From Candidatus Acetothermia bacterium (GTDB taxonomy: Bacteria; Bipolaricaulota; Bipolaricaulia; RBG-16-55-9; JANLFV01), in NCBI GenBank assembly GCA_024653345.1, contig JANLFV010000017.1:1-27626 (forward strand): 27,626 nt of DNA, in the 5' to 3' direction. The notes below the pieces were generated by a model, which had not been told where the DNA came from, made no database searches, and saw only the letters and a list, made by a program, of their open reading frames with translations. Position 1 is the stretch's first letter. Every line of letters begins with the position of its first letter. A program made the position numbers and the translations under genes. Of the stretch, positions 8,289 through 22,892 are shown piece by piece.

Positions 8289-9644
8289 CTAGCCCCTTCC
8301 GCTCGAGAGGTAATGGTCGATCCCCGCCGCGGCCAGCTTCCCGTCCCGGACCGCCTGGACGACCGTGGCCCCGCCGTTGATGCAGTCCCCGCCCGCGAAG
8401 TAGCGGGGATTGCTGGTCTGGAGCGTCTCCGGATCGACCTTCACCAGGCCGCCGTCCAGCTCGAGGCCGGGGATCAGCTTCAGCACCTCCGTCCGGGGCT
8501 GCTGGCCGATCGCCTTCACCACGGTGTCGACCGGCAGGACGAACTCCGTCCCGGGGACCGGCTCGGGCCGGGGCCGGCCGCTCGCGTCCGGCGCGCCCAG
8601 CCGCATGTAGAGGCACTCGATCCCCTCGACCCGGCTGGTGCCGCGGAGCCGCTTCGGCGCGACCAGCCAGTAGAAGTGGACCCCCTCCTTCCGGGCCCAC
8701 TTCACCTCCTTCTTGAAGGCCGGCATCTGCTCCTCCGTCCGGCGATAGAGGATCATCACATCCTTCGCCCCGAGGCGGACGGCCTCCCTTGCCACATCGA
8801 GCGCGGTGTTCCCCCCGCCGATCACCGCCACCCGCTCGCCGATCCGCAGCCGGCGCGGGTCGCCCAGCTTCAGCTCCTCGATGAACGGGAGCGACTCGTA
8901 GACCCCCTCTAGATCGTCCCCCTCCCAGCGGACCTCGACATCCTTCCCCATCCCGATCCCGAGGAAGAGCGCCTGATGGCGGCGCTCCAGCTCCTCGAAG
9001 GTCGGGCTCTCCCCCACGGCCTGGCCGAGGCGGAACTCCACTCCCAGCCGGGCGATCCGCTCGGCCTCCTGGGGGAGGGGCTCGATGTGCTGCTTGTAGG
9101 GCGCGATCGCGCGGGTCACCAGCCCGCCGAGGTCGGGGTCGCGCTCGTAGACCGTCACCCGATACCCGAGCTTGGCCAGCTCCGCGGCACAGGCCAGCCC
9201 CGCTGGGCCGGCCCCGATCACTCCCACGCTCCGCTTGTTCGGTCTTCCCCGCTCGAGGTATTCCAGCCCCCGCTCGAGGACCCAGTCGGTCGCAAACCGC
9301 TGGAGCCGCCCGATTGCCACCGGCCGGCGGCCCTCCTCGTGGAGGACGCAGGCCCCCTCGCAGAGCTCGTCCACGGGGCAGACCCGGGCGCAGGTTCCGC
9401 CCAGGACATTCGCGGCGAAGATCGTCCTCCCCGAGGCCTCGTGATCGCGCTCGAGGATCTGCTTGATGAACAAGGGGACATCGACGCGGGCCGGGCAGGC
9501 GGCCACGCAGGGGGCCGGGGCCTCCTTCCCCCCGCAGAGGAGGCAGCGCTCGGCCTCAAAGAGCGCTTCATCTTCCGAAGAGAACGGCGGGACCTCCTCG
9601 GCGAAGAGCGCCTCCGCGCCCCTCGGCTGGACCTTCACTGGCAT
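8289..9644 (-). CDS. GltD/PreT/NfnB-like FAD- and Fe-S-dependent NAD(P)H oxidoreductase (451 aa)
   Basis: The N-terminal 125 residues are the cysteine-rich helical domain shared by glutamate synthase small subunit, dihydropyrimidine dehydrogenase (PreT) and Nfn large subunit: Cys34, 37, 46, 50 and Cys85, 89, 95, 99 should hold two [4Fe-4S] clusters. An FAD Rossmann motif GVIGAGPAGLACA begins near 141, an NAD(P)H Rossmann motif VAVIGGGNTALDVA near 272, and AGGDCINGG near the end binds FAD. No large-subunit partner (GltB, PreA or NfnA) is adjacent, so the electron partner is unknown. Its position divergent from the kor/hdr operon and behind the shared paired operators suggests electron exchange between NAD(P)H and ferredoxin or the Hdr module. 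AAGGAGG lies 7 bp before the ATG. Confidence 0.88.
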   Translation of the reverse strand: MPVKVQPRGAEALFAEEVPPFSSEDEALFEAERCLLCGGKEAPAPCVAACPARVDVPLFIKQILERDHEASGRTIFAANVLGGTCARVCPVDELCEGACVLHEEGRRPVAIGRLQRFATDWVLERGLEYLERGRPNKRSVGVIGAGPAGLACAAELAKLGYRVTVYERDPDLGGLVTRAIAPYKQHIEPLPQEAERIARLGVEFRLGQAVGESPTFEELERRHQALFLGIGMGKDVEVRWEGDDLEGVYESLPFIEELKLGDPRRLRIGERVAVIGGGNTALDVAREAVRLGAKDVMILYRRTEEQMPAFKKEVKWARKEGVHFYWLVAPKRLRGTSRVEGIECLYMRLGAPDASGRPRPEPVPGTEFVLPVDTVVKAIGQQPRTEVLKLIPGLELDGGLVKVDPETLQTSNPRYFAGGDCINGGATVVQAVRDGKLAAAGIDHYLSSGRG

Positions 9645-9677
9645 GATCGGCCTCCTTAGCCTAAGATTGCTAGCGCC

Positions 9678-9683: not shown

Positions 9684-9706
9684 GGCCCGCTCGCGAGGGG
9701 GCACTA

Positions 9707-9740
9707 TGATCCATATCGCCAGCGGAGATGATCTAAATCA
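9707..9740. promoter_or_regulatory. Tandem Crp/Fnr-like operators between the gltD-like and radical-SAM genes
   Basis: TGATCCATATCG (9707-9718, one mismatch in the right half-site) and TGATCTAAATCA (9729-9740, perfect half-sites). Centres are 22 bp apart, as in the other two control regions. The pair could serve both divergent genes; spacing fits best the gltD-like promoter. Confidence 0.68.
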
Positions 9741-9780
9741 GAGGAGCTCGGGAAAGGATGCTCAAGGATGTGAGCCAGCG

Positions 9781-11508
9781 ATGAGCCGGACGGACCTTGT
9801 CTTGCTCCATCCCCCCAGCATCTACGACTTCCGCGAGCGGGCCGCCCTCCTCGGGCCGCTGAGCGACCTGATCCCCTCCTCGCCCGTCTTCGAGATGTAT
9901 CCTCTCGGGTTCCTCACGCTCGCTAGCTACCTCGAGGCGCGGGGCCTGCGAGTCCGGCTGGTGAACCTGGCCGTGCGGATGCTGGCCGAGCGGCGATTCG
10001 CCGTCCGACCGTTCCTGGCGAGGCTTAAGCCGAAGCTGTTCGGGATCGACCTCCACTGGCTCCCTCACGCCCACGGGGCGCTCGAGGTCGCCCACCTCCT
10101 CAAGGAGCTCCACCCCGAGGTCCCCGTGGTCGTCGGCGGCCTCTCGGCCAGCTACTACTACCGCGAGCTGATCGGCTATCCCCAGATCGACTATGTGATC
10201 CGCGGCGACTGCGCCGAGGAGCCGCTCTATCGCCTGCTGGAATGCATCATGGACCGCCGGCCCGTGGCGGATGTCCCGAACCTCGTCTGGAGGGACACCG
10301 CCGGGATTCGCGCGAACGAGGCGGCCTTCATACCCGACTCGCTGGACTATGTCGACCTCCGGCCCGACCGGCTGATCAAGCATGTCCTCCGCTACAGGGA
10401 CAGGCTCAGCCTCACGCCCTATGGCGGCTGGTGGGGGAGCCCCGTGACGGCCATCCTCACGGTGAAGGGCTGCACCCACAGCTGCGCCACCTGCGGCGGC
10501 TCGCGCGAGGCGGCGCCTCGGGTGGTCGGCCGGGCCAGGCCGGCCTACCGGAGCCCGGAGAGCATGATGAGGAACATCCTCGATGTCGCCCGCTTCTCCC
10601 GCGGCCCGATCTTCCTCATCGGCGACATCCGCCAGCCGGGGGAGGCCTACGCCGAGGAGCTTCTCCGGCTGCTACGGGAGAACCCGCTCGAGAACGAGCT
10701 GATCTTCGAGCTCTTCACCCCCGCGGGAGAGGAGTTCCTGCGCGAGCTGGGAAGGTCCGTCCGGAACTGGACTCTCGAGATGTCGCCCGAGAGCCACGAC
10801 CCCGCGCTCCGCGGGGTCCACGACCCGACGGCCGTCTACGATAATGATGAGCTGGAACGGACCCTAGCGGAGGCCCTGAAGGCCGGCTGCCGGCGGCTCG
10901 ACATCTTCTTCATGATCGGCCTCTCCCGCCAGAGCTATCGCTCGGTCATGGCGAGCGTGGACTACGCCGGGGCACTCCTCCGGCGGTTCGACCGGCGGCT
11001 CTCCTGCTTCATCTCCCCATTGGGGCCGTTCCTCGACCCAGGGAGCCGAGCCTTCGAGGAGCCGGAGAGCCTCGGCTACCGGCTCTTCGCCCGCTCGCTC
11101 GAGGACCACCGCCAACTGCTGCTCCGACCGACCTGGGCCGAGATGCTCAACTACGAGACCGCCTGGATGAGCCGGGAGGAGCTGGTCCGCGCGACCTACG
11201 ATGCCGGGGAGAGGCTTACCGAGCTGAAGGCGGAGCATGGCCGGCTCTCGCCCCGCCAGGCTGCGGCGGTGGCCGAGCGGATCGCCCGAGCCAGGGAGCT
11301 GGAAAAAGAGCTTCAGGCCTATGGCCGGAGGAAGGCCGACCCGCCGGAGGGGCTGCGCGCGGCCGCGCGCGCGTTCAGCGTCTCCACCGTCTGCGACAAG
11401 CGGGAGCTGGCCTGGCCGCGCGAAGCGCTGAACTTCAGGCCCCTAGGGATCGCGCGCGCGCTCCTCTCCCGCTCCGCCCGCTCTGACTCGGATCACCCGC
11501 GCCATTGA
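9781..11508 (+). CDS. B12-binding domain radical SAM protein, Ta0216-like (575 aa)
   Basis: The ATG at 9781 (MSRTDLVLLHPPSIYDF) is chosen; an upstream in-frame ATG at 9706 would place the operators inside the gene. Residues about 35-165 are a cobalamin-binding-type Rossmann domain (PLGFLTLASYLEARG, VPVVVGGLSASYY, YVIRGDCAEEPL). The radical SAM cluster motif CTHSCATC places Cys231, 235 and 238, followed by the TIM-barrel region to about 450 and a charged helical C-terminus. The opening LLHPPS.YDFR, PVFEMYP and YGGWWGSP segments fit the Ta0216-type B12/radical SAM family, whose substrate is unknown. No classical DxHxxG B12 motif is visible. It ends 50 bp before korD, and the korD operators lie over its last codons. 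Confidence 0.88.
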   Translation: MSRTDLVLLHPPSIYDFRERAALLGPLSDLIPSSPVFEMYPLGFLTLASYLEARGLRVRLVNLAVRMLAERRFAVRPFLARLKPKLFGIDLHWLPHAHGALEVAHLLKELHPEVPVVVGGLSASYYYRELIGYPQIDYVIRGDCAEEPLYRLLECIMDRRPVADVPNLVWRDTAGIRANEAAFIPDSLDYVDLRPDRLIKHVLRYRDRLSLTPYGGWWGSPVTAILTVKGCTHSCATCGGSREAAPRVVGRARPAYRSPESMMRNILDVARFSRGPIFLIGDIRQPGEAYAEELLRLLRENPLENELIFELFTPAGEEFLRELGRSVRNWTLEMSPESHDPALRGVHDPTAVYDNDELERTLAEALKAGCRRLDIFFMIGLSRQSYRSVMASVDYAGALLRRFDRRLSCFISPLGPFLDPGSRAFEEPESLGYRLFARSLEDHRQLLLRPTWAEMLNYETAWMSREELVRATYDAGERLTELKAEHGRLSPRQAAAVAERIARARELEKELQAYGRRKADPPEGLRAAARAFSVSTVCDKRELAWPREALNFRPLGIARALLSRSARSDSDHPRH

Positions 11509-11517
11509 CCTCGGTCA
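11484..11517. promoter_or_regulatory. Tandem Crp/Fnr-like operators of the kor operon
   Basis: TGACTCGGATCA (11484-11495) and TGACCTCGGTCA (11506-11517), both TGAY-N4-RTCA with perfect half-sites, centres 22 bp apart. They overlap the end of the radical SAM coding sequence. Relative to the -10 at 11541 their centres fall at -41.5 and -63.5. Confidence 0.72.
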
Positions 11518-11540
11518 TAGCGCCGCCCCGCGCCGGCCCC

Positions 11541-11546
11541 TAGAAT
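11541..11546 (+). promoter_or_regulatory. Probable -10 element of the kor-hdr-frd operon
   Basis: TAGAAT inside CCTAGAATG, with no -35 match at the usual distance, as expected for an activator-dependent class II promoter. The predicted start (about 11553) is only 6 nt before the korD ATG, so the transcript may be nearly leaderless. Confidence 0.6.
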
Positions 11547-11558
11547 GCGAGGGCAAAG

Positions 11559-11852
11559 ATGGCAATTGCCGTGGAAGAAAGAGAGAAGTCGCGCGGGCGC
11601 AAGCTTCTCGGAGGCCAGCCCGCGGTCCCCGTCGGGCGGGTCTATGTGATCCCCGAGCGGTGCAAGGAATGCGGCTTCTGCTGGACCTTCTGCCCCAAGG
11701 AGGTCCTGGAAAAATCCGACACTGCTAACTCCAAAGGATTCTACTACCCTCGGCTGAAGGAGGGGAAGGAGCAGGAGTGCGTGGACTGCAAGACCTGCAT
11801 GCTCATCTGCCCCGAGTTCGCCATCTTTACTGAGAGGGTGGAAGAGAGATGA
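11559..11852 (+). CDS. korD: 2-oxoacid:ferredoxin oxidoreductase, delta (ferredoxin) subunit
   Basis: This 97-residue protein holds two [4Fe-4S] motifs, CKECGFCWTFCP (about residues 34-45) and CVDCKTCMLICP (about 74-85). It delivers electrons between the TPP-containing subunit and free ferredoxin. About 30 basic residues precede the first cluster. It is the first gene of the operon; its TGA overlaps the korA ATG (ATGA). GAGGG lies before the ATG, although the predicted promoter would leave little leader. Order D-A-B-C is typical of 2-oxoglutarate (Kor) type four-subunit enzymes. Confidence 0.93.
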   Translation: MAIAVEEREKSRGRKLLGGQPAVPVGRVYVIPERCKECGFCWTFCPKEVLEKSDTANSKGFYYPRLKEGKEQECVDCKTCMLICPEFAIFTERVEER

Positions 11853-13006
11853 GCGCCCAAGTCCAGGCGACCGATCAGGCCATTCTCGTCGGCCAGCACT
11901 TCATGAGCGGGGACGACGCCTGCGCCGAGGGGGCGATCGCCGCGGGGTGCCGGTTCTTCGCCGGCTACCCCATCACGCCCTCGAGCGAGATCGCCGAGCG
12001 GATGGCCCGTCGGCTCCCCCAGGTCGGGGGGATCTACCTCCAGATGGAGGACGAGATCGCGAGCATGGCCGCGATCGTTGGCGCCTCCTGCGCCGGGGCG
12101 AAGGCGATGACCGCCACCAGCGGCCCCGGCTTCTCCCTGATGCAAGAGAACATCGGCCTGGCCTTCATGACCGAGACGCCGTGCGTCATCGTCAATGTCC
12201 AGCGCGGCGGCCCCTCCACGGGGATGCCGACCCTCATCGGCCAGGCGGACATGATGCAGGTCCGGTTCGGCTCGCACGGTGATTACGCGGTGATCGCCTA
12301 TGCCCCCGCCTCGCCCCAGGAGATGTTCGACTACACGATCAAGGCCTTCAATATGGCCGAGCGGTTCCGCACCCCCACCTTCGTGATGGCCGATGAGCTG
12401 GTCGGGCACACCTACGAGCGGGTGGTGATCGACCCGGCGAAGATCGAGCTGGTGAGCCGGAAGCGACCGCATGTCAAGCCGGGCGAGCGGTTCTGGCCGT
12501 TCGAGCCCGACCCGGACCTCGTCCCGCCGATGGCCCTCGCTGGGGAGGGCTATAGGATCCATGTGACCGGCCTGACCCATGACGAGCGGGGCTACCCCGC
12601 GGCGACCGAGCCGGAGATCCAGGAGCGGATGCTCGAGCGGATGCTGCGGAAGATCCTGGACCGGCGAGATGAGATCGTGGAATACGAGGAGGTCGAGCTG
12701 GAGGACGCCGAGGTCGTGCTCATCGCCTACGGCTCGACGGCCCGCGCGGCCCTCCATGCCCTCCGCCTGGCACGGGAGCGAGGGCTGAAAGTAGGCATGC
12801 TCCGGCTCATCACCCCCTGGCCCTTCCCCGACAAGAGGGTCGCTGCGCTCCGCGAGGCGGAGATCATCGTCCCCGAGGTGAACGCCGGCCAGATGGCTCG
12901 GGAGATCGAGCGCTGGATCCGCAAGCCGGCCCACCGCGTCAACCGGCTCGGGGGCGAGCTGCTCCATCCCGACGAGATCCTGAGGAAGATCGAGGAGGTG
13001 GCCTAG
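11849..13006 (+). CDS. korA: 2-oxoacid:ferredoxin oxidoreductase, alpha subunit
   Basis: The 385-residue protein has the family's conserved segments: FFAGYPITPSSE (about 36-47), MEDEIASMAAIVGAS (about 66-80), TATSGPGFSLM (about 88-98) and RGGPSTGMPT (about 119-128), followed by the second domain with GSTARAALHA and the LRLITPWPFP segment. It binds the pyrimidine side of TPP and the CoA/2-oxoacid substrate together with korB. Length fits the separate alpha subunit of Kor/Vor-type enzymes rather than a fused pyruvate enzyme. 2-oxoglutarate (succinyl-CoA + CO2 + reduced ferredoxin) is the likeliest substrate because isocitrate dehydrogenase and fumarate-reductase-like genes are linked; branched-chain or other 2-oxoacids are not excluded. 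Confidence 0.93.
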   Translation: MSAQVQATDQAILVGQHFMSGDDACAEGAIAAGCRFFAGYPITPSSEIAERMARRLPQVGGIYLQMEDEIASMAAIVGASCAGAKAMTATSGPGFSLMQENIGLAFMTETPCVIVNVQRGGPSTGMPTLIGQADMMQVRFGSHGDYAVIAYAPASPQEMFDYTIKAFNMAERFRTPTFVMADELVGHTYERVVIDPAKIELVSRKRPHVKPGERFWPFEPDPDLVPPMALAGEGYRIHVTGLTHDERGYPAATEPEIQERMLERMLRKILDRRDEIVEYEEVELEDAEVVLIAYGSTARAALHALRLARERGLKVGMLRLITPWPFPDKRVAALREAEIIVPEVNAGQMAREIERWIRKPAHRVNRLGGELLHPDEILRKIEEVA

Positions 13007-13010
13007 AGAG

Positions 13011-13883
13011 ATGGCCCTCGACCTCCGCGAGGTCATCACCGAGCACCACCCCGAGGATGAGCTGCTTCGCGAGGACCGGATCCCCCACATCTGGTGCCCC
13101 GGCTGCGGCCTGGGGGTGGCCGTCACGGCCTACATCGAGGCCCTAAAGCTCGCCTCGGCCCAGATCCCGCTCGAGAAGCAGATTGTGGTCTCCGGGATCG
13201 GCTGCACCGGCCGAGTCGCGGGCTACATCAATGTCGACTCCTACCACACGACCCACGGGCGGGCTATCCCCTTCGCCACGGGGCTGAAGGTGGCCAATCC
13301 CGAGCTGGAGATCACCGTCTTCAGCGGGGACGGGGACCTCTTCGCCATCGGGGGGAACCACTTCATCCACGCCGCGCGCCGCAATGTGGACATCAATGTG
13401 ATCTGCTGCAACAACTTCAACTACGGGATGACCGGGGGCCAGGTCGGGCCCACGACCCCGGAGATGGCGATCACCAGCACCTCGCCCTACGGGAACATGG
13501 AGGAGGGGTTCAACCTGCCCTATCTCGCTGCGGCCTCGGGGGCGGTCTTCGTCGCCAGGTGGACCACCCTCCACTTCCGCAAGCTCCGGGATGCCATCTC
13601 GCAGGCCTTCGCCAAGCGGGGGTTCACCTTCATCGAGGTCATCGCCCCCTGCCCGACGAGCTTCGGCCGGCCGAACGAGCTCGGCCAGGGGCTGGACGAG
13701 ATGGAGTGGTATCGCGAGAGCTGCGTGATCGACCACCAGGCCAACCTGCGGGAGATCGGCCTCTCGATGAGGAAGGACTCGAAGATCGTGGTGGGGAATT
13801 TTCTGGATATCGAGCGGCCGACCTTCCTCGACCGCTACCAAGAGGTGATGAAGCGGGCCCAGGCTGCGGGAGGGAAGAGATGA
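13011..13883 (+). CDS. korB: 2-oxoacid:ferredoxin oxidoreductase, beta (TPP-binding) subunit
   Basis: The product is 290 residues. The thiamine-diphosphate motif runs from SGDGD (105-109) to NN (134-135). Cys29 and Cys32 (WCPGCG), Cys65 (GIGCTGR) and Cys214 (PCPTS) are at the places of the four ligands of the proximal [4Fe-4S] cluster. It contains the active-site cofactor for oxidative decarboxylation, or in reverse carboxylation, of the 2-oxoacid. It starts 4 bp after korA and its TGA overlaps the ATG of korC. Confidence 0.93.
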   Translation: MALDLREVITEHHPEDELLREDRIPHIWCPGCGLGVAVTAYIEALKLASAQIPLEKQIVVSGIGCTGRVAGYINVDSYHTTHGRAIPFATGLKVANPELEITVFSGDGDLFAIGGNHFIHAARRNVDINVICCNNFNYGMTGGQVGPTTPEMAITSTSPYGNMEEGFNLPYLAAASGAVFVARWTTLHFRKLRDAISQAFAKRGFTFIEVIAPCPTSFGRPNELGQGLDEMEWYRESCVIDHQANLREIGLSMRKDSKIVVGNFLDIERPTFLDRYQEVMKRAQAAGGKR

Positions 13884-14449
13884 GGCAAGAGATCCGCATC
13901 GGCGGGTTCGGAGGGCAGGGAATCGTGCTTGCGGGGCACATCCTCGGCCGGGCCGCGATTGCCGCGGGGAAGCACGCGGCCATGACTCAGTCCTATGGCC
14001 CCGAGATGCGCGGCGGGCGCGTGGCTGCCGATGTGGTCCTCGACGATCGGCCGATCGACTACCCCAAGGTCATCAGGCCCGAGATCTCGGTCTTCCTCTT
14101 CCAGGGGGCCTATGAGCACCATCGCCAGGAGATCGGCCCGGTGCTGCTCTATGATCAGGACCTGGTCCAGCTCCACCCGGAGGACGCTGCCCGCGAGGGG
14201 CGGACAGTCTATGCCATCCGGCCGAACAAGATCGCCGAGGAGCTCGGCCGGAGGGTGGTGGTGAACATCGCCATGCTCGGCGCCCTCACCGCCCTCACCG
14301 ACCTGCTCCCCGCCGAGGTCCTCGAGGAGGCGGTCCTCGCCTCGGTCCCGAGGAAGGCGCTCGACCTGAACCGCGAGGCGTTCCGCTGGGGCCTGGCCCA
14401 CGGGCTGGAGCTCCGCGCCCAGCGCAAAGAAGTGGAGGTCCGCCGATGA
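13880..14449 (+). CDS. korC: 2-oxoacid:ferredoxin oxidoreductase, gamma subunit
   Basis: The 189-residue protein begins MRQEIRIGGFGGQGIVLAGHIL, the hallmark of the gamma domain, and continues with SYGPEMRGG and VNIAMLGAL. It is the CoA-side/structural subunit of the four-part enzyme. The ATG at 13880 overlaps the korB stop (ATGA), and its own TGA overlaps the hdrA ATG; a longer open frame exists upstream only as a shadow of korB. The tight overlap with hdrA links the oxidoreductase physically, at least in expression, to the Hdr module. Confidence 0.92.
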   Translation: MRQEIRIGGFGGQGIVLAGHILGRAAIAAGKHAAMTQSYGPEMRGGRVAADVVLDDRPIDYPKVIRPEISVFLFQGAYEHHRQEIGPVLLYDQDLVQLHPEDAAREGRTVYAIRPNKIAEELGRRVVVNIAMLGALTALTDLLPAEVLEEAVLASVPRKALDLNREAFRWGLAHGLELRAQRKEVEVRR

Positions 14450-16836
14450 GCGAGCGAGAAGAGCCGCGCGTGGGGGTCTATGTCTGCCACTGCGGGACGA
14501 ACATCGCCGGGGTGGTGGATGTGGAAGAGGTGGCCAAGGCCGCCCAGGCCTTGCCCGGGGTGGTGGTGGCCAAGCACACGATGTATGCCTGCTCCGAGGC
14601 GACCCAGCGGGAGATCATCAACGACGTCCAGCAGGAGAAGCTCAATCGGGTGGTCGTCGCGGCCTGTTCACCGAAGATGCACGAGCCGACCTTCCGCGCG
14701 GCCCTGGAGCGGGCCGGCTTGAACAAATACCTCTTCGAGATGGCCAACATCCGGGAGCAGGACTCCTGGGTCCACAAGGACGGCCACAAGGCCACGGAGA
14801 AGGCCAAGGACCTGGTGAGGATGGCCGTGGCTCGGGCCCGCCTCCTCAGGGCTTATGAAGAGCGCGAGCTCCCCGTGGGGGAGCGCGTCCTGGTCGTGGG
14901 GGGCGGGATCGCCGGGATCCAGGCGGCCCTCGACCTGGCCGACTCCGGCTACAAGGTCTTCCTGGTCGAGAAGGAGCCGTTCATCGGGGGGCACATGGCC
15001 CAGCTCGATAAGACCTTCCCGACACTCGACTGCTCGACCTGCATCCTCGCCCCGAAGATGGCCGAGGTCGCCCGGCACAAGAACATCACGCTCCTCACCA
15101 ATGCCGAGGTCACCGAGGTCACCGGGTTCGTGGGGAACTTCAAGGTCAAGGTCCGCCAGAAGGCCCGCTTCGTGACCTCGGAGTGCACCGCCTGCAATGA
15201 GTGCGTCCCCGTCTGCCCCGTGGCCGTCCCCGACGAGTTCAATATGGGGCTCGGCTTGAGGAAGGCAATCTACAAGTCTCTCCCCCAGGCCGTTCCTGCG
15301 GAATACGCCATCGACATCGAGAACTGCCTCAACAAGCCGAACCTGCTAGTCTGCGAGAAGTGCCTCGAGGCCTGTTCCCCGAAGGCGATCGACTTCGAGC
15401 AGCCGCGGGAGAAGGAGCTGGAGCTGGCCGTGGACACGGTGATCATCGCCATCGGGGCCGACCCCTACGACCCCTCGAAGGGCCAGGACTACGGCTACGG
15501 GAAATACGAGAATGTGATCACGACCATCGACTTCGAGCGGATCATCGCCCCCACCGGCCCGACGAATGGAAAACTCCTCCGGCCGAGCGATCTCGGGAAG
15601 CCGCAGAGGATCGCGTTCATCCAGTGCGTCGGCTCGCGGATCGCCAACCCCGAGCTGGTGGGGAACCCCTACTGCAGCGGGATCTGCTGCATGGTCTCGA
15701 TCAAGCAGGCCCTGCTCATCAGGGAGAAGCTCCCCGAGGCCGAGATCACGATCTACTACATCGACATCCGGGCCAAGGGGAAGGGCTTCGAGGAGATGTA
15801 TCGCCGGGCCAGGCTCGCCGGGATCAGGTTCATCAAGGGCCTCCCGGCCGAGGTCCTGGAAAACGATGATGGGAGCCTGACCCTCGTGGGGGAGAACATC
15901 CTCCTGGGTGAGCTCTACGAGCACCGCCATGATCTAGTCATCCTTTCGGTGGGCCTGGAGGCGCGCAAGGAGAGCGAGAAGGTCCAGAAGCTCCTCGGCG
16001 TGGCCCGCTCGAGCGACGGCTTCTTCGCCGAGAAGCACCCCAAGCTCGAGCCGGTCGATACTGCCACTACAGGCATCTTCCTCGCCGGCGCGGCCGAGAG
16101 CCCCAAGGACATTCGGGAGAGCTCGACCCAGGCCAAGGCCGCGGCCAGCCGGGCCGCGCGGCTGATGAAGGAGGGGAAGATCAGGATCGAGGCCCTCACG
16201 GCCGAGGTCCGGGAGGAGATGTGCGTGGCCTGCGGGATCTGCGAGTCTGTCTGCCCATTCAACGCCATCCATGTCGACGGGACCTCGAAGGTCACCGAGG
16301 CCGCCTGCCAGGGGTGCGGGGTCTGCGCCGCCTCCTGCCCCGTGGGAGCGATCACGATGCACAACTTCACCGACGAGCAGATCCTGGCCCAGGTCGAGGC
16401 GGCCCTGGCCGAGCGGCCCGAGGAGAAGGCGATCGTCTTCACCTGCAACTGGTGCTCCTACGCCGGGGCGGACATGGCCGGGACCTCCAGGCTGGAGTAT
16501 GACCCCTCCGTCCGGCTGATCCGGCTGATGTGCTCCGGCCGGCTCAACCCGAAGTTCGTCCTCCGGGCCTTCGAGCTGGGCGCGGCGGGCGTGCTCGTCA
16601 CCGGCTGTCACCCGGGGGAGTGCCACTACCAGTCCGGGAATTACCGGGCGCTCAGCCGGTTCCAGCTCCTCCAGGGGCTCTTGCGGAGCCTGGGGATCGC
16701 CGAGGAGCGGTTCGGTCTGGAGTGGGTCTCAGCCGCCGAGGGGGAGAGGTTCAGCCAGGTGGTGAACGCCTTCGCGGACCGGCTGCGGCGGCTCCGCGCC
16801 GCCCCCGAGGAGCAAGAGATGGTCGAGGTGCACTGA
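14446..16836 (+). CDS. hdrA: HdrA-like flavoprotein fused to an MvhD domain (796 aa)
   Basis: The first about 640 residues are HdrA: an N-terminal domain with VCHCGTNIAG, the FAD Rossmann motif VLVVGGGIAGIQAA (148-161), the PTLDCSTCILAPKM segment typical of HdrA, Fe-S ligands at Cys247/250/253/257 and Cys294/303/306/310, and a C-terminal two-cluster ferredoxin (Cys593/596/599/603 and Cys621/624/627/631). Residues about 662-775 are an MvhD-like domain (TCNWCSYAG, LMCSGR, GCHPGECHY), normally a separate small [2Fe-2S] subunit linking HdrA to a hydrogenase or dehydrogenase. HdrA is the flavin-based electron-bifurcating subunit in methanogens. No hydrogenase genes are present here, so the donor must be another partner. 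Confidence 0.93.
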   Translation: MSEREEPRVGVYVCHCGTNIAGVVDVEEVAKAAQALPGVVVAKHTMYACSEATQREIINDVQQEKLNRVVVAACSPKMHEPTFRAALERAGLNKYLFEMANIREQDSWVHKDGHKATEKAKDLVRMAVARARLLRAYEERELPVGERVLVVGGGIAGIQAALDLADSGYKVFLVEKEPFIGGHMAQLDKTFPTLDCSTCILAPKMAEVARHKNITLLTNAEVTEVTGFVGNFKVKVRQKARFVTSECTACNECVPVCPVAVPDEFNMGLGLRKAIYKSLPQAVPAEYAIDIENCLNKPNLLVCEKCLEACSPKAIDFEQPREKELELAVDTVIIAIGADPYDPSKGQDYGYGKYENVITTIDFERIIAPTGPTNGKLLRPSDLGKPQRIAFIQCVGSRIANPELVGNPYCSGICCMVSIKQALLIREKLPEAEITIYYIDIRAKGKGFEEMYRRARLAGIRFIKGLPAEVLENDDGSLTLVGENILLGELYEHRHDLVILSVGLEARKESEKVQKLLGVARSSDGFFAEKHPKLEPVDTATTGIFLAGAAESPKDIRESSTQAKAAASRAARLMKEGKIRIEALTAEVREEMCVACGICESVCPFNAIHVDGTSKVTEAACQGCGVCAASCPVGAITMHNFTDEQILAQVEAALAERPEEKAIVFTCNWCSYAGADMAGTSRLEYDPSVRLIRLMCSGRLNPKFVLRAFELGAAGVLVTGCHPGECHYQSGNYRALSRFQLLQGLLRSLGIAEERFGLEWVSAAEGERFSQVVNAFADRLRRLRAAPEEQEMVEVH

Positions 16837-16837
16837 G

Positions 16838-17227
16838 ATGCTAGAGCTTTCGAGCAAAGAGTTGCAGCGCGCGGTCGAGGAGCTCTCCGGCCAGAAGGTC
16901 TTCGCCTGTTACCAGTGCGGAAAGTGCAGCGCGAGCTGCCCCTTCGCCGCGGAGATGGACCTCACTCCCCGCCAGGTGCTGGAATACATCATGGACGGGC
17001 GAGTGGAGGTCCTGAACTCGAACACCATCTGGATCTGCGCCTCCTGCTTCTCCTGCATGGCCCGCTGCCCCAACGGGATCGACATCTCCAAGGTGATGGA
17101 AGCTCTCCGGCAGCTTCTCCTGCGGAGCGGGCGAGATCAGCTCGACCTGCTGAAGATCCCCGAGGCCGACCTGAAGGAGATCCCCCAGATCGCGTTCATC
17201 GCCGGGGCGAGGAAGCTGATCGGATGA
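16838..17227 (+). CDS. hdrC: HdrC-like iron-sulfur protein
   Basis: The 129-residue protein has two [4Fe-4S] motifs: Cys24/27/30/34 (CYQCGKCSASCP) and Cys67/70/73/77 (CASCFSCMARCP). HdrC relays electrons between HdrA and the catalytic HdrB. It starts one base after the hdrA stop and its TGA overlaps the hdrB ATG. Length is somewhat below archaeal HdrC (about 185 aa) but usual for bacterial forms. Confidence 0.92.
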   Translation: MLELSSKELQRAVEELSGQKVFACYQCGKCSASCPFAAEMDLTPRQVLEYIMDGRVEVLNSNTIWICASCFSCMARCPNGIDISKVMEALRQLLLRSGRDQLDLLKIPEADLKEIPQIAFIAGARKLIG

Positions 17228-18105
17228 AGGTCTTATATTACCCCGGCTGCAGCCTGAAGACCGTCGCGGAGAGCTTCGAGCGGTCGGCCAAGCTGGCCAT
17301 GGCCGCCCTGGGGGTCGAACTGGTCGAGCTCGAGCGCTGGAACTGCTGCGGGACGGTGAGCGCCCTCACGACCGACGACCTGATGCACCAGCTCGCCCCG
17401 ATCCGCAACCTGATCCGCGTCCAGGAGGCGGGCGAGGAAAGGCTAGTCACCCTCTGCGCCATGTGCTACAACACCCTCAAGCGGGCCGACCTCTGGGTGG
17501 CCCAGCACCCCGAGGAGCTGGCGAAGATCAACGCCTTCCTCGATGAGGAGCCGGACTACCGCGGGAAGGTGCGGGTCCTCCACCTCCTCGAGCTACTCCG
17601 GGACGAGCTGGGCTTTGCCACGGTGAAGGAGCGGGTCGTCCGCCCCCTCACCGGGCTGCGGGTCATCCCCTACTACGGCTGCCTCCTCCTCCGCCCGCGG
17701 GAGGTCGGGCTCGATAGCGCCGAGAATCCGCGGATCTTGGAGGACTTGATCGTGGCCCTGGGCGCCGAGCCGGTCGATACGCCCTACAAGACCCAGTGTT
17801 GCGGCTCCTACCACACCACGACCCACAAGGAGATCGTGGCCAAGCGCGCCCATGCGATCCTGTCCTCAGCGCGGGAGCACGGCGGGGAGGTGTTGATCTC
17901 CTCCTGCCCGTTGTGCTCGTTCAACCTCGACAACCGCCAGCGGCTCGTCCGGGAGCTCTACGACGGCTTCGCCCCCGTCCCGGTCCTCTACTTCACCGAG
18001 CTGCTGGGGCTGGCCCTGGGATTGGACCCGCAGGCTTGGATCTCCGAGCAGCACTATGTCGATCCCCGACCGTTGCTCGAGGAGCACCAGTTACTGAAGA
18101 GGTGA
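17224..18105 (+). CDS. hdrB: HdrB-like subunit with two complete CCG domains
   Basis: The ATG at 17224 overlaps the hdrC stop (ATGA) and gives 293 residues, the normal HdrB length. Both CCG cysteine sets are complete: Cys9, 41, 42, 78, 81 and Cys153, 192, 193, 228, 231. In structurally known HdrB these bind two non-cubane [4Fe-4S] clusters that cleave a heterodisulfide. The bacterial substrate is unknown; a thiol/disulfide or a partner protein's cluster is possible. The immediate linkage to fumarate-reductase-like subunits recalls thiol:fumarate reductase, in which HdrB-like and SdhB-like domains are fused. Confidence 0.92.
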   Translation: MKVLYYPGCSLKTVAESFERSAKLAMAALGVELVELERWNCCGTVSALTTDDLMHQLAPIRNLIRVQEAGEERLVTLCAMCYNTLKRADLWVAQHPEELAKINAFLDEEPDYRGKVRVLHLLELLRDELGFATVKERVVRPLTGLRVIPYYGCLLLRPREVGLDSAENPRILEDLIVALGAEPVDTPYKTQCCGSYHTTTHKEIVAKRAHAILSSAREHGGEVLISSCPLCSFNLDNRQRLVRELYDGFAPVPVLYFTELLGLALGLDPQAWISEQHYVDPRPLLEEHQLLKR

Positions 18106-18113
18106 GATGATCT

Positions 18114-18797
18114 ATGGAGACTGTGCGGATTTATATCATGGGCAAGGAATACTCGGTCCCGGCCGGGCTGACGGTGATGAAGGCCATGGAGTATGCCGGC
18201 TACAAGTTCATCCGCGGGGCCGGCTGCCGGGCCGGGTTCTGCGGGGCCTGCGGGACGGTCTACCGGAAGGAGGACGAGTATAAGCTCCGGTTCGCCGTGG
18301 CCTGTCAGAAGCTGGTAGAGGACGGGATGTATCTTGTCCAGCTCCCCTTCGCCCCCGCGCCCCGCGCAAGCTATGATCTGGAGAAGATCCGCCCGAGCGA
18401 CAATGTCCTGCTCAAGTTCTACCCCGAGATCGCCAGGTGCGTGGCCTGCAACACCTGCACCAAGAGCTGTCCCCAGGAGATCCAGGTGATGGACTACATC
18501 CAGGCGGCCCTCCGCGGGGACATCCGGCGCGTGGCCGAGCTATCATTCGACTGCATCCAGTGCGGCCTCTGCTCCATGCGCTGCCCCGCGGACATTAAGC
18601 ACTATCATGTGGCCCAGCTCGCCCGCCGCCTCTACGGGAAGTATCTTGCCCCTAAGGCCGAGCACCTTGCCCAGAGGGTAGCGGAGATCGAGCAAGGGAA
18701 GTTCAACGCAGAGTTAGATCGGCTCACTCGGATGGAAAGGAAGGAGCTCACCAAGCTCTATGAGGCCCGCCAGATCGAGGAAGGAGTGGGAGTATGA
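18114..18797 (+). CDS. frdB: Fumarate reductase/succinate dehydrogenase-like iron-sulfur subunit (227 aa)
   Basis: The N-terminal about 85 residues form a [2Fe-2S] ferredoxin domain with Cys38, 43, 46 and 64 (GCRAGFCGACG). The C-terminal part has Cys109/112/115/119 and Cys147/150/153/157. Both sets are full CxxCxxCxxxCP motifs, whereas membrane-bound Sdh/Frd carry one [3Fe-4S] centre. Together with the absence of any membrane anchor gene this points to a soluble, TfrB-like subunit whose CCG part is supplied separately by hdrB or the HdrD-like protein. It begins 8 bp after hdrB; its TGA overlaps the frdA ATG. Confidence 0.88.
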   Translation: METVRIYIMGKEYSVPAGLTVMKAMEYAGYKFIRGAGCRAGFCGACGTVYRKEDEYKLRFAVACQKLVEDGMYLVQLPFAPAPRASYDLEKIRPSDNVLLKFYPEIARCVACNTCTKSCPQEIQVMDYIQAALRGDIRRVAELSFDCIQCGLCSMRCPADIKHYHVAQLARRLYGKYLAPKAEHLAQRVAEIEQGKFNAELDRLTRMERKELTKLYEARQIEEGVGV

Positions 18798-20479
18798 GCA
18801 TAGCCCTGACCACGAGCACAAGCATGAGCACGAGCGGCTACCCTGACTCCATGCGGGAGTTGATCGCCAAGGTCGAGGCCACGCGGCCTGAGCGGCTCAA
18901 GAGTTCCCCGCCGCGGATGAGCGCGGAGGAGCGAGAGAAGCTCCTCCGGGAGTGGCATCCGGACTACAAGGCCGGGACGAAGAGGCCCCTCTCTATCGGC
19001 CCGAGCAAGGGGGAGCTGGTGCCGCACGAGGTGGCCGACCTCCTCGAGGCCTACCCCCTGATCTCGCCGGAGGAGGTCGACCTCTCCCAGATCGACTACG
19101 ATGTCGATGTCCTGGTCATCGGCGGCGGGGGGGCCGGGACGGTCGCGGCCCTCTGGGCCTATTACGAGGGACTCCCCCCGGAGAGGATCTTGATCGCCAC
19201 CAAGCTCCGCTGGGGGGACTCGAACTCGATCATGGCCCAGGGTGGGATCCAGGCGGCCGATCGGCCCGAGGACTCCCCCGCGATCCACTACCTCGACATC
19301 ATCGGCGGCGGGCACTACGCGAACAAGCCCGAGCTGGTCCGGGCCCTGGCGAGCGACGGCCCGATGATCATCAAGTGGCACGAGTCCTTGGGAGTGATGT
19401 ATGACAAGAACCCCGACGGGAGCTTCGTGGAGAAGCACGGCGGGGGGACCTCGAGGATGCGGATGCACTCGGCCAAGGACTACACCGGGATGGAGATCAT
19501 GCGGGCCCTAAGGGATGAGGCGAGGAACATCGGGATCCCGGTGGTCGAGTTCGCCCCCGCGGTCGAGCTCCTGATGGACGACCTCGGCCAGGTGGCCGGT
19601 GCGGTCCTCTTCAACCTCGAGACGGGCCAATACCTAGTAGTCCGGGCCAAGGCCACGGTCCTCGCCACCGGGGGCTTCGGGCGGCTCCACATCCAAGGGT
19701 TCCCCACGACTAACCACTACGGCGCGACGGCCGATGGGCTGGTCCTAGCCTACCGCGTCGGGGCCAAACTCCGCGACATGGACGCGGTCCAATATCACCC
19801 CACCGGCGTCGCTTATCCCGAGGCGCTGGTCGGCCAGCTCGTGACCGAGAAGGTCCGCGGGATGGGCGCGATGCCGGTCAACCGGCATGGGGAGGCCTTC
19901 GTCTACCCCCTCGAACCAAGGGATGTGGAGTCCGCGGCCTTGATCCGGGAATGCTACGGCCGGGGGAATGGGGTTGAGACCCCCACGGGGATGAGGGGGG
20001 TCTGGCTCGACTCCCCGATGATCGAGGAGCTCCAGGGGGCGGGGGCGATCAAGCGCGAGCTGGCGGCGATGTGGCGGATGTTCAACCGCTTCGGGATCGA
20101 TATGACCAAGGAGCCGATCCTCGTCTTCCCCACGCTCCACTACCAGAACGGGGGGGTCGAGATCGATGAGCACGGCTGGACCGGTGTCCCGGGGCTCTTC
20201 GCCGGGGGAGAAGTCGAGGGCGGGGTCCACGGGAAGAACCGGCTGATGGGGAACTCGCTCCTCGACTACAATGTCTTCGGCCGGCGGGCCGGGATCGCCG
20301 CGGCCAGGCACGCCAAGGGCAAGGGAGCGAAGCTGGGGAAGCTCACGCTCGACCACATCGTGGCCTACAGCCGAATGCTAGAGGAAGCGGGGGTCAGCAA
20401 TGACCGGAAGGCCCCGCTCCTCCTCCCGGAGTATCGCGGCGAGCGGGCACTAGCCCGGTCGCTCAAGATCCGGCTCTGA
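18794..20479 (+). CDS. frdA: Fumarate reductase/succinate dehydrogenase-like flavoprotein subunit (561 aa)
   Basis: The FAD-binding motif VDVLVIGGGGAGTVAALWA lies at 104-122, unusually far in because of a roughly 100-residue N-terminal extension. Catalytic residues of the family can be placed: His335 (QYHPTG), Arg355 (TEKVRGMG), His449 (LHYQNGG) and Arg483 (GKNRLMGNSLLD). The His that carries covalent FAD in membrane-bound enzymes aligns with Asn144 (GDSNSIMAQGG), so FAD should be non-covalent. The enzyme probably interconverts fumarate and succinate in the cytoplasm, exchanging electrons through FrdB with the Hdr module. L-aspartate oxidase is an alternative flavoprotein with a similar motif, but the paired Fe-S subunit argues for fumarate reductase. 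Confidence 0.88.
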   Translation: MSIALTTSTSMSTSGYPDSMRELIAKVEATRPERLKSSPPRMSAEEREKLLREWHPDYKAGTKRPLSIGPSKGELVPHEVADLLEAYPLISPEEVDLSQIDYDVDVLVIGGGGAGTVAALWAYYEGLPPERILIATKLRWGDSNSIMAQGGIQAADRPEDSPAIHYLDIIGGGHYANKPELVRALASDGPMIIKWHESLGVMYDKNPDGSFVEKHGGGTSRMRMHSAKDYTGMEIMRALRDEARNIGIPVVEFAPAVELLMDDLGQVAGAVLFNLETGQYLVVRAKATVLATGGFGRLHIQGFPTTNHYGATADGLVLAYRVGAKLRDMDAVQYHPTGVAYPEALVGQLVTEKVRGMGAMPVNRHGEAFVYPLEPRDVESAALIRECYGRGNGVETPTGMRGVWLDSPMIEELQGAGAIKRELAAMWRMFNRFGIDMTKEPILVFPTLHYQNGGVEIDEHGWTGVPGLFAGGEVEGGVHGKNRLMGNSLLDYNVFGRRAGIAAARHAKGKGAKLGKLTLDHIVAYSRMLEEAGVSNDRKAPLLLPEYRGERALARSLKIRL

Positions 20480-21603
20480 TCCGCGATTATTGCTACCACT
20501 GCGGGCGGTGTAGCGCCGTCTGCCCGGCCGGCTTGACCGGCCCCTTCCGCCCGCGGCGGCTCCTCCTCCTGGCCCAGCTCGACCCCGAGCGGCTCCTCAG
20601 CCCGGGCTCGGATCTTACCTGGGAGTGCACCACCTGCAACGCCTGCGTCGACCTCTGCCCTCAGGGGATGAGGCCCCCAGAGGTCGCCGTCCTCCTGCGG
20701 AGCCGGCTCGTCGAGGCCGGCCGCCTCCCCGAGCCGGTCAATGAGGCCCTGAAGGGGATCTATCGCCGGGGGAACCCCTGGGGCCTCCCCAGGGCTGAGC
20801 GGGCGGCCTGGGCCGCGGGTCTCCCGCTCAAGCCCTACCAGCGCGGGATGGAGTGGCTCTGGTTCCTCGGCTGTGCTGCGGCTTACGACCCCCGGCTCCA
20901 GGCGGCGGCCCGAGCCTTGGCGAAGATACTTGCTCATGCCGGGTTGGAGGTCGGTTTCCTGGGCGAGCGTGAGCGCTGCTGCGGCGAGCCGGCCCGGCGG
21001 CTCGGCGAGGAAGGGCTCTTCCAAATGCTGGCGGAGGAGAACTCGGCCCAGTTCAACGATCTCGGGGCGAAGAAGATCCTCACCGCCTGCCCGCACGGCT
21101 ACCATGCCTTCAAGAACGAGTATCCCCCGCTCAAGGCCGAGGTCCGGCACTATACCCAGCTCCTGGCCGAATTGGTCCGCGACCGGAGGCTGGCCTTCTC
21201 CGAGCCAGAGGAGGAGCTGCGCGTGACCTACCATGACCCTTGCTATCTGGGGCGGCACAATGGGATCTATGAGGAGCCGCGCCTCGTGCTGGAGAGCCTC
21301 CCAGGGGTGGAGCTGATCGAGATGCCGCGGAATCGCGACCGCAGCCGCTGCTGCGGCGGTGGCGGCGGAAGGATGTGGGCGGCATTGAATGAGCAGGTCC
21401 GCCCGAGCGAGCTCCGGCTCCAGGAGGCCCTGGAGACCGGGGCTGAGGCGCTCATCACCGCCTGCCCGTTCTGCACCTGCCACCTCGAGGAGGCGGTCAA
21501 GACCCTCAATCTGGAGAGCGAGATCAGGGTCCTCGACCTCGCTGAGCTGGTGGCCGCGCGGCTCGCCCGCCCCGGCCGGGCCGGGAGCATTGAACTGATT
21601 TGA
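20476..21603 (+). CDS. HdrD/GlpC-like Fe-S protein with ferredoxin and two CCG domains (375 aa)
   Basis: The first cluster motif (Cys6, 9, 12, 16: CYHCGRCSAVCP) begins right after the frdA stop, so the gene must start upstream of the first conventional start (TTG 20533), which would delete it. The best candidate is CTG at 20476, which overlaps the frdA TGA as CTGA just as the other genes overlap through ATGA. A second [4Fe-4S] motif is Cys51/54/57/61. CCG domain 1 has Cys133, 168, 169, 205 (its last Cys is replaced: CPHG); domain 2 is complete (Cys256, 292, 293, 330, 333). Similar proteins (HdrD, GlpC, LldE relatives) pass electrons to a thiol, quinone or flavoprotein. No membrane helices are seen. 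Confidence 0.85.
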   Translation: MIRDYCYHCGRCSAVCPAGLTGPFRPRRLLLLAQLDPERLLSPGSDLTWECTTCNACVDLCPQGMRPPEVAVLLRSRLVEAGRLPEPVNEALKGIYRRGNPWGLPRAERAAWAAGLPLKPYQRGMEWLWFLGCAAAYDPRLQAAARALAKILAHAGLEVGFLGERERCCGEPARRLGEEGLFQMLAEENSAQFNDLGAKKILTACPHGYHAFKNEYPPLKAEVRHYTQLLAELVRDRRLAFSEPEEELRVTYHDPCYLGRHNGIYEEPRLVLESLPGVELIEMPRNRDRSRCCGGGGGRMWAALNEQVRPSELRLQEALETGAEALITACPFCTCHLEEAVKTLNLESEIRVLDLAELVAARLARPGRAGSIELI

Positions 21604-21657
21604 TCCTCGGCCCGGCTCTTGCTAAGCTATCGAAAAGCGAGAGATGAGAGGTGGTCT

Positions 21658-22773
21658 ATGGCCAAGCTGAGGATCGCGCTCCTCCCCGGGGACGGGATCG
21701 GCAGGGATGTGATGGACGCCGCCAGGATTGTCTTGGAGAAGATCGACCTCGACGCCGAGTATCTCGAGGGCGAGGTCGGCTGGGAGCTGTGGAAGCGGGA
21801 GGGGAACCCTCTCCCCCAGCGGACGATCGATCTCCTGAAGAGCACGGACTGCTGCCTCTTCGGGGCGATCACCTCCAAGCCGAAGGAGGAGGCGGAAAAG
21901 GAGCTCATCCCCGAGCTCCAAGGGAAGGGCTACACCTACTCCAGCCCGATCGTGGCCTTAAGGCAGCTCTTCGACCTCTACATCAACATGCGCCCGTGCA
22001 AGGCCTACCCTGGGAATCCTCTGAACTACCGGGACGACATCGACCTCGTGGTCTTCCGGGAGAACACCGAGGGCTTGTATGCCGGGGTCGAGTTCTACCC
22101 CCTCCCCGACGGGGTCCGGCGAGCCCTCGAGACCCATCCGAAGATGAAGCGCTTCGCCGATGTCCCTCCTGACGAGATTGCCCTCACCTGCCGGATCATC
22201 ACCAGGCGCGGGGCGGAGCGGATCGTCCGGGCCGCCTTCGAGTATGCCAAGAAGACCGGCCGCAAGTCCGTGACGATCGTGGAGAAGCCCAATGTTCTGA
22301 GGGAGACGAGCGGACTGATGGTCCGGACCGCAAGGGAGGTGGCGAAGGATTATCCCGGGATCGAGCTCTCGGAGGCGAATATCGATTCAATGGCCATGTG
22401 GCTGATCAAGAACCCCCAGGACTACAGCGTGCTCGTGACCTCGAACCTCTTCGGGGATGTGATCTCCGACCTGGCGGGGCAGCTCGTCGGCGGGCTGGGG
22501 TTCGCCTCCTCGGCGAACATCGGGGACCACTATGCCTTGTTCGAGCCGGTCCACGGCTCGGCACCCAAATATGCCGGGCAATACAAGGTGAACCCGATGG
22601 CGATGCTCCTCACGGTGAGCCTGATGCTCGAGTGGCTCGGGAAGCAAGAGGAGGCTGCCAAACTCGAGCGGGCGATCGCCTCGGTGATCAAGGAAGGCAA
22701 AGTAAGGACATACGACATGGGTGGGAGCACCTCGACGCTCGATGTGGCAAGAGAGGTGGCCCGGAGGCTCTAG
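21658..22773 (+). CDS. icd: Isocitrate/isopropylmalate dehydrogenase family; probable NADP+-isocitrate dehydrogenase (371 aa)
   Basis: The ATG at 21658 follows GAGAGGTGG and opens MAKLRIALLPGDGIG. The beta-decarboxylating dehydrogenase signature is present: VALRQLFDLYINMRP (99-113), FRENTEGLYAG (133-143), the metal-binding region NLFGDVISDLAG (263-274) and HGSAPKYAGQYKVNP (299-313). Lys304, Tyr305 and Val311 match the residues that select NADP+ in E. coli isocitrate dehydrogenase, while NAD+ enzymes have Asp-Ile there. Ser97 matches the substrate Ser, but Ile99 replaces the usual Asn, as in isopropylmalate and homoisocitrate relatives, so the substrate is not settled by sequence alone. The link with kor and frd genes favours isocitrate, working in the oxidative or reductive direction. 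Confidence 0.85.
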   Translation: MAKLRIALLPGDGIGRDVMDAARIVLEKIDLDAEYLEGEVGWELWKREGNPLPQRTIDLLKSTDCCLFGAITSKPKEEAEKELIPELQGKGYTYSSPIVALRQLFDLYINMRPCKAYPGNPLNYRDDIDLVVFRENTEGLYAGVEFYPLPDGVRRALETHPKMKRFADVPPDEIALTCRIITRRGAERIVRAAFEYAKKTGRKSVTIVEKPNVLRETSGLMVRTAREVAKDYPGIELSEANIDSMAMWLIKNPQDYSVLVTSNLFGDVISDLAGQLVGGLGFASSANIGDHYALFEPVHGSAPKYAGQYKVNPMAMLLTVSLMLEWLGKQEEAAKLERAIASVIKEGKVRTYDMGGSTSTLDVAREVARRL

Positions 22774-22886
22774 TGCTCTGCTAACCATCCTTTGTTAAGT
22801 TCCTCCACTCCCCTAGAGGGAGAGGACTGAGGTGGGGGGAAGAGAAGTAGCACGTCGTGCCTCCATATCAACTGCGGCAGAGCACT
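22772..22886. repeat. MITE-like element with 10-bp terminal inverted repeats
   Basis: AGTGCTCTGC at 22772-22781 is the exact reverse complement of GCAGAGCACT at 22877-22886. The 115-bp unit contains no gene and has an internal CTCCC-CTAGA-GGGAG hairpin (22808-22822) and a purine-rich GAGGTGGGGGGAAGAG segment like small dispersed repeats in GC-rich genomes. Its first two bases are the last two of the icd TAG stop codon. No clear target duplication is seen. Confidence 0.5.
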
Positions 22887-22892
22887 GGGCGC

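Follow-up and report, generated by a model that had tools for sequence, protein, structure and literature searches.

Does a run of genes that sets a ferredoxin-dependent 2-oxoacid oxidoreductase (Kor), a heterodisulfide-reductase-type module (HdrABC) and a soluble fumarate-reductase-like pair (FrdBA) side by side encode a single electron-coupling system? The run lies on contig JANLFV010000017.1 (27,626 nucleotides, hereafter the window) of Candidatus Acetothermia bacterium, phylum Bipolaricaulota (assembly GCA_024653345.1; 1.71 Mb, 92% complete). A previous sequence-only reading had proposed that HdrA couples ferredoxin, made or used by Kor, to fumarate/succinate through FrdAB without a membrane anchor, with a second carrier and an HdrD-like protein as further ports. 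The central coupling is well supported by co-conservation in Bipolaricaulota, Thermoplasmatota, Asgard archaea and several bacterial phyla, whereas the two further ports do not. We assign a probability of roughly 0.6 to the following reading of these gene sequences: HdrABC would act as a flavin-based engine for bifurcation or confurcation, with fumarate/succinate, reached via FrdBA, as its high-potential partner in place of a heterodisulfide, and would share ferredoxin with Kor.

The gene run and its conserved unit

The ten frames described previously between 11559 and 21603 were all located there, and family and structure matches bore out the assignments for Kor, HdrA with its MvhD domain, HdrC, HdrB and the Frd-like pair. 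The packing is as tight as had been claimed: most junctions are either 4-nt overlaps of the form ATGA (KorD/KorA, KorB/KorC, KorC/HdrA, HdrC/HdrB and FrdB/FrdA) or gaps of 1–8 nt (KorA/KorB, HdrA/HdrC and HdrB/FrdB). The count of ten genes was too low, as an overlooked isocitrate/homoisocitrate dehydrogenase-like gene (ATG at 21658) extends the run, which spans 11559-22773 (+) in the following order:

11559..11852, +: KorD, ferredoxin-like delta subunit with two 4Fe-4S motifs (family match)
11849..13006, +: KorA, 2-oxoacid:acceptor oxidoreductase alpha subunit (NF006412, 563.6 bits, cut-off 411)
13011..13883, +: KorB, thiamine pyrophosphate subunit (closest solved relative, a 2-oxoglutarate:ferredoxin oxidoreductase beta subunit)
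13880..14449, +: KorC, gamma subunit (family match)
14446..16836, +: HdrA2-type HdrA with a fused MvhD (FlpD) domain at residues ~663-783 (NF040770, PF02662, solved HdrA homologs)
16838..17227, +: HdrC (family match)
17224..18105, +: HdrB with two noncubane-cluster motifs (family match, motif scan)
18114..18797, +: FrdB-like protein, N-terminal 2Fe-2S domain plus HdrC-like domain (profile, model)
18794..20479, +: FrdA-like flavoprotein (active-site residues, model)
20476..21603, +: HdrD-like frame resembling the C-terminal part of TfrB; its CTG start overlaps the FrdA stop
21658..22773, +: isocitrate/homoisocitrate dehydrogenase-like protein, the probable final gene of the run (same position at loci L009/L104)

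No product of the run is likely to contain a membrane segment (highest 19-residue Kyte-Doolittle mean 1.74), and no membrane anchor gene of the quinone-linked Sdh/Frd (complex II) type was found in it. Promoter and terminator scans returned site numbers no higher than in shuffled sequence, so the ends of the operon are undefined.

Two sets of relatives were collected with the same FrdA query, and neighboring genes played no part in their selection. Scanning genome contigs with FrdA alone yielded 80 loci, and counts were made on the 52 whose upstream flank reached 7.5 kb or more. HdrA was present at 50 of these well-flanked loci, HdrB and HdrC at 51, KorA at 28 and the hydrogenase subunit MvhA at 26. 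The second set covered the phylum to which locus L072 belongs; as the Borrarchaeum genome of locus L071 is also a member, this phylum represents Asgard archaea, and FrdA was found in 43 of its 227 genomes. Here 22 of 25 short loci had HdrB, FrdB and FrdA in unbroken series, and all nine wider regions carried the complete set of HdrA, HdrC, HdrB, FrdB and FrdA, joined by Kor in eight. Within the window’s own phylum, by our own count of the matches, 52 of 100 genomes held a stretch at least 60% identical to FrdA. The organisms represented include Bipolaricaulota, Thermoplasmatota, Theionarchaea, Borr- and Sifarchaeota, Chitinivibrionales, Synergistales and Clostridia; the labels Gammaproteobacteria, Spirochaetaceae and Anaerolineales on some metagenome-assembled genomes (MAGs) may be binning errors. 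Two single-contig genomes of the window’s phylum (G004 and G005) encode HdrA-MvhDGA-HdrCB-FrdBA-KorDAB-fumarase-malic enzyme as one run. Kor varies in position among relatives, lying on either side of Hdr-Frd or missing.

The conserved unit is HdrABC plus FrdBA, not the whole ten-gene block. Conservation of the block had been suggested as a check on the coupling, and the separate occurrence of its parts as the refutation; Hdr and Frd proved to be kept together rather than apart, but Kor (28/52) and the HdrD-like gene (5/52) did not share that constancy. This conserved gene system is real, and it is a novel combination of known parts.

The HdrD-like gene, all five copies of which are of low identity, illustrates the difference. 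In the window the body of the frame is intact, and a paralog with 64% identity lies next to a further HdrA in another part of the genome. No ATG, GTG or TTG start precedes its first 4Fe-4S motif, and the sole coupled start is the CTG at 20476, without a clear Shine-Dalgarno sequence. The nearest public relative is the Acetothermia/Bipolaricaulota MAG RSWS19 (FrdA 94% identical), in which the spacer of ~160 nt between FrdA and the isocitrate dehydrogenase-like gene still aligns with the start of the HdrD-like gene and represents a deletion scar. The frame is lineage-specific and possibly decaying. With few copies among relatives and the scar alone in this sister genome, we rejected it as a core part, and its proposed role as a further port finds no conservation behind it.

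Subunits and the proposed electron route

Gene content and order, conservation, module swapping, and the active-site and cluster residues were observed directly. FrdA retains the fold and the set of catalytic Arg and His residues used by E. coli FrdA for fumarate reduction. Among relatives R376, T351-E352, R355, H449 and R483 are invariant and H335 is at least 90% conserved; these correspond to R287, T244-E245, R248, H355, R390 and H232, respectively, in the E. coli protein. The position of the His that binds FAD covalently is occupied by an invariant Asn144. The predicted model of FrdA (predicted local distance difference test, pLDDT, 87.6) matches fumarate reductases with Z of 38-40 over ~390-430 residues; a conserved N-terminal extension of ~100 amino acids precedes this core, and the first ~80 residues lie outside the structural matches. 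FrdA is the sole full-length FAD_binding_2 flavoprotein in the genome.

As L-aspartate oxidases have the same fold and active site, the substrate assignment leans on context too. In many relatives the block is extended by genes for class I fumarase, malic enzyme and SucCD, which outline a path from 2-oxoglutarate through succinyl-CoA, succinate, fumarate and malate to pyruvate. This co-encoding offers supporting evidence for fumarate/succinate as the probable substrate of FrdBA. Separately, one Asgard genome carries a FrdA frame with a single in-frame TGA (L149, G274:C15:2540-4183), reflecting recoding, a sequence error or a pseudogene.

The model of FrdB (pLDDT 89.3) comprises an N-terminal 2Fe-2S domain followed by a domain with two four-Cys motifs. 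The best structural matches to the C-terminal domain are solved HdrC chains (Z 11.5, 2.5 Å, 88 residues), with which the alpha subunit of carbon monoxide dehydrogenase ties, and the best NCBIfam match of FrdB is a partial one to CdhA. E. coli FrdB aligns across most of the protein; its third cluster has three Cys ligands, with Val at the place of the fourth, whereas the window protein presents four invariant Cys (C147, C150, C153 and C157) and hence lacks a quinone-type 3Fe-4S site. The candidate assignment of FrdB as an ordinary SdhB was rejected: its profile match to E. coli FrdB is only modest (94.9%, E 4e-8) and that to HdrC is similar (95.7%). SdhB chains were absent from the structural matches listed for the model, an absence that is not proof.

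HdrA passes the HdrA2 family model NF040770 (1142.7 bits against a cut-off of 1100), and its C-terminal MvhD domain matches PF02662 (1.4e-50, residues 663-783). HdrC has two 4Fe-4S motifs. HdrB contains two complete CX31-38CCX34-35CXXC motifs of the noncubane-cluster type, scores under the methanogen equivalog cut-offs, and also matches SdhE of 8-methylmenaquinol:fumarate reductase (4.8e-42). The HdrC-like fold predicted for FrdB and the matches of HdrB to both HdrB and SdhE fit a putative electron route HdrA-HdrC-HdrB-FrdB-FrdA. Kor is a four-subunit set, KorABCD, with KorA above its family cut-off and KorB under its own; specificity for 2-oxoglutarate is suggested by the family and by the SucCD and isocitrate dehydrogenase neighbors.

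In the mechanism that we favor, the HdrA flavin would split or merge electron pairs within a soluble HdrABC-FrdBA system. The strongest reductant in the cell, ferredoxin, common to HdrA and the co-encoded Kor, would form the low-potential branch, and the route above would carry the high-potential branch to fumarate/succinate. The middle-potential port would be exchangeable, with MvhGA admitting H2 or FlxABC admitting NADH in relatives. Running reductively in the window genus, fumarate reduction would pay for the ferredoxin that drives 2-oxoglutarate synthesis. One bifurcation cycle would balance one turnover of Kor and one of Frd, because both move two electrons per turnover, and such a balance would account for their co-transcription. 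From the gene-level evidence we infer the physical contact, the bifurcation, the substrate and the direction in this scheme.

Electron donor, direction and alternatives

The second carrier anticipated within the block is missing from the window. MvhG and MvhA of the NiFe hydrogenase are absent from the run and the NADH module FlxA/B/C is absent from the window, whereas relatives encode MvhGA or FlxABC in the same run; other hydrogenases are encoded elsewhere in the genome. Among the nine wider Asgard regions MvhGA occurs in five and FlxABC in four, with HdrABC and FrdBA constant throughout. The Flx module is present at loci L061, L069, L076, L083, L087, L088, L159-L161 and L165, of which L083 belongs to the cultured Clostridium asparagiforme. 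The FrdA tree does not unite the Bipolaricaulota and scatters the hydrogenase-less blocks (the window and L009; L022, L034 and L077) among hydrogenase-bearing relatives. Given these separate positions in the tree, repeated loss of the hydrogenase is probable. For the window genus our guess at the donor is NAD(P)H, via a GltD-like protein, or else a hydrogenase whose genes lie outside the run; the GltD/NfnB-like protein at 8289..9644 (-) is the candidate.

A GltD-like FAD/NAD(P) domain also occurs inserted mid-protein in other HdrA proteins, at L100:8124-11390 (contig C11) and L099:8845-12573 (contig C9) of the same genome and at DHVE2 loci L042, L048 and L051, where it is possibly a direct NAD(P)H port into HdrA. 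Contig C11 additionally has HdrD-like, FlxA-like, GltD, MvhD, MvhG and MvhA genes.

Several observations weigh against HdrABC as an engine coupled to FrdBA. The window lacks the donor module that most relatives carry. At four Dehalococcoidia loci (L081, L082, L085 and L086) no Hdr gene lies in the stretch examined, and FrdBA sits beside fumarase in all four and also beside malic enzyme in three. At L072:9319-15634 and at L155, HdrB is missing, and FlxB/FlxA-like genes and NiFe hydrogenase genes come after FrdBA; this hydrogenase-type module is a different partner for FrdBA. A search for fusions among HdrB, FrdB, FrdA and Kor (Rosetta stones) found none, and the FrdA-HdrA distance correlation was weak (Spearman 0.33); subunit distance correlations proved too uneven and were dropped as coupling evidence. 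Finally, a thiol/disulfide could act between Hdr and Frd, the HdrB motifs being intact.

Direction was approached through the tricarboxylic acid (TCA) cycle genes. The sole Citrate_synt match in the genome is a SucD-citryl-CoA-lyase fusion adjoining a SucC-like gene (L119:5066-8481), and among solved chains this pair matches citryl-CoA lyase, citryl-CoA synthetase and ATP-citrate lyase (6hxj). Such ATP-citrate-lyase-like pairs are rare (3 of 100 Bipolaricaulota genomes) and include both members of the window genus. This pair, together with the failure to find a separate Si-citrate synthase in the genome, makes the reductive direction likelier in this genus; amino-acid-fermenting relatives with a hydrogenase may just as well run the system oxidatively, by confurcation. 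The genome encodes fumarase, SucC and a LeuC-type member of the aconitase family; a full reductive cycle is not shown, since there was either no search or no match for Re-citrate synthase, a true aconitase, malate dehydrogenase and SucD.

Ferredoxin has a potential of about -500 mV and H2 of -414 mV. Those of fumarate/succinate and NAD are +33 mV and -320 mV (PMC5861303). From these values, 2 H2 + Fd + fumarate -> Fd(red) + succinate should release about -70 kJ/mol at standard conditions. With 2 NADH as donor for fumarate and ferredoxin (two electrons each) the estimate is about -33 kJ/mol at standard potentials, and the reverse reaction with H2 would approach zero only if H2 were at or below a few Pa and the succinate:fumarate ratio high.

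These estimates bear on the alternative that survives best, which overlaps our preferred reading and differs in direction alone. Kor would reduce ferredoxin from 2-oxoglutarate, FrdBA would oxidize succinate, and HdrABC would merge both electron pairs onto H2 or NADH in the service of amino-acid fermentation or syntrophy. In keeping with this, relatives with a hydrogenase have genes for Kor, Frd, fumarase and malic enzyme, and in some cases SucCD, in one place, and Ca. Bipolaricaulis Ran1, whose genome is closed, is described as an amino-acid and sugar fermenter with HdrABC-MvhDGA and without annotated Sdh/Frd (PMC6092417). The merged pair would average about -234 mV, so that H2 release approaches equilibrium solely at very low H2. 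Against this direction, the window genus lacks a hydrogenase in the run and has the ATP-citrate-lyase-like pair, and the reductive reaction has the standard free energy given above. We regard this direction as possible but tentative.

A thiol intermediate is considerably more doubtful. HdrABC would then reduce a disulfide, and FrdBA with the HdrD-like protein (a split TfrB) would act as a thiol:fumarate reductase, a small thiol shuttling between them. In NCBIfam, FrdA scores best against TfrA and the HdrD-like frame against the C-terminal part of TfrB, the FrdB N-terminus weakly matches that of TfrB, HdrB retains both heterodisulfide-type cluster motifs, and a Tfr has been proposed for Sifarchaeia (PMC9723677). 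These scores nevertheless lie far under the cut-offs (TfrA 313.7 against 718; TfrB, for the HdrD-like frame, 167 against 385), and most relatives lack the thiol-oxidizing half, as the HdrD-like part is missing at 47 of 52 loci; it has also decayed in the sister genome. Least probable, by a little, is a plain operon in which Kor, HdrABC and FrdBA are merely co-regulated by TCA demand and FrdBA is fed without bifurcation by free ferredoxin or another soluble carrier: Dehalococcoidia do encode FrdBA with no Hdr nearby, and the mobile or missing Kor is therefore no fixed part, but HdrC-HdrB adjoins FrdB in many phyla and the Hdr-Frd pairing persists while donor modules exchange.

Neighboring genes and known systems

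Three genes flank the run upstream:

7467..8204, -: CRP/FNR-family regulator adjoining the GltD-like gene
8289..9644, -: GltD/NfnB-like NAD(P)H flavoprotein, a divergent neighbor kept within the genus
9706..11508, +: B12-binding radical SAM protein (TIGR04190), 50 nt upstream of KorD and kept in the sister genome

Further along, G+C content falls to 0.47-0.50 over 24000-27000, against 0.61-0.70 over 3000-23000. A large secreted-looking protein (24636-27578) sits within this possibly acquired segment. At the other end, the adjacent short genes 1985-2554 and 2621-3319 (-) have similar translations, by eye possibly Uma2-like; the former has no NCBIfam match.

Two classic energetic bottlenecks, the oxidation of succinate in fermenting cells and the provision of ferredoxin to the reductive TCA cycle, are as a rule overcome at a membrane. 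If our preferred reading is correct, one soluble Hdr-Frd enzyme family would resolve both, paying for the ferredoxin of the reductive cycle where needed and freeing the succinate/fumarate step from the membrane. It predicts fumarate-dependent reduction of ferredoxin by H2 or NADH. It would also fill the Sdh/Frd step missing in Ca. Bipolaricaulis (PMC6092417), since G004 and G005 carry the block, although neither is equated with Ran1, and would give Asgard archaea a predicted H2/NADH-ferredoxin-fumarate link relevant to syntrophy models of eukaryote origins. We lean, by a narrow balance, towards the broader view of a widespread, so far unrecognized soluble bifurcating fumarate reductase or confurcating succinate dehydrogenase, with HdrABC, FrdBA as its high-potential arm, an exchangeable H2/NADH port and a connection to Kor, in Asgard archaea, Thermoplasmatota and several bacterial phyla.

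No description of Hdr-Frd coupling of this kind was found in a literature search, most subscription papers being outside its reach. The closest engine is HdrA2B2C2 of Methanosarcina acetivorans, which links F420H2 to ferredoxin and CoM-S-S-CoB (PMC6019823). The window shares with it an HdrA2-type HdrA with fused MvhD, HdrB and HdrC in a unit without hydrogenase, but joins FrdBA and Kor, so that the presumed high-potential partner is fumarate/succinate instead of CoM-S-S-CoB. About half of the well-flanked relatives resemble the MvhADG-HdrABC complex of hydrogenotrophic methanogens, with HdrA, MvhD, MvhG, MvhA, HdrC and HdrB in one run; they differ in that FrdBA follows HdrB and Kor is attached, and the window itself lacks MvhGA. 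Similarly, Flx replaces the hydrogenase in Clostridia, Synergistales, Chitinivibrionales and several Asgard relatives, as in FlxABCD-HdrABC of anaerobic bacteria, again with FrdBA attached and with no Flx in the window.

Soluble fumarate reductases form a second group for comparison. TfrAB is likewise soluble and anchor-free, has CCG domains, and is the top family match for FrdA and the HdrD-like frame; the window differs, however, in scores far under the cut-offs of these families, in a CCG part that forms a gene of its own and is not conserved, and in having Hdr as the partner. The soluble NADH-dependent fumarate reductase of Hydrogenobacter thermophilus, reported by Miura et al. 2008 (cited in PMC12743299), is by description similar in being soluble and serving a reductive TCA cycle, and is not known to bifurcate or to have an HdrABC partner. 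In SdhABE/8-methylmenaquinol:fumarate reductase an HdrB-like CCG subunit also serves an Sdh/Frd pair, but that system is quinol-linked, whereas the window has HdrA and HdrC and a FrdB without the 3Fe-4S ligand set. The Ehe cluster of Culexarchaeia places SdhA and a ‘CdhA’ beside HdrA2B2C2, with succinate or CO oxidation proposed (PMC9723716). It thus shares the co-location of Sdh/Frd-type with HdrA2B2C2-type genes, although Ehe is tied to a membrane group 4 hydrogenase, and because the top NCBIfam match of the window FrdB is itself a partial CdhA match, the Culexarchaeia ‘CdhA’ may be a FrdB-like protein.

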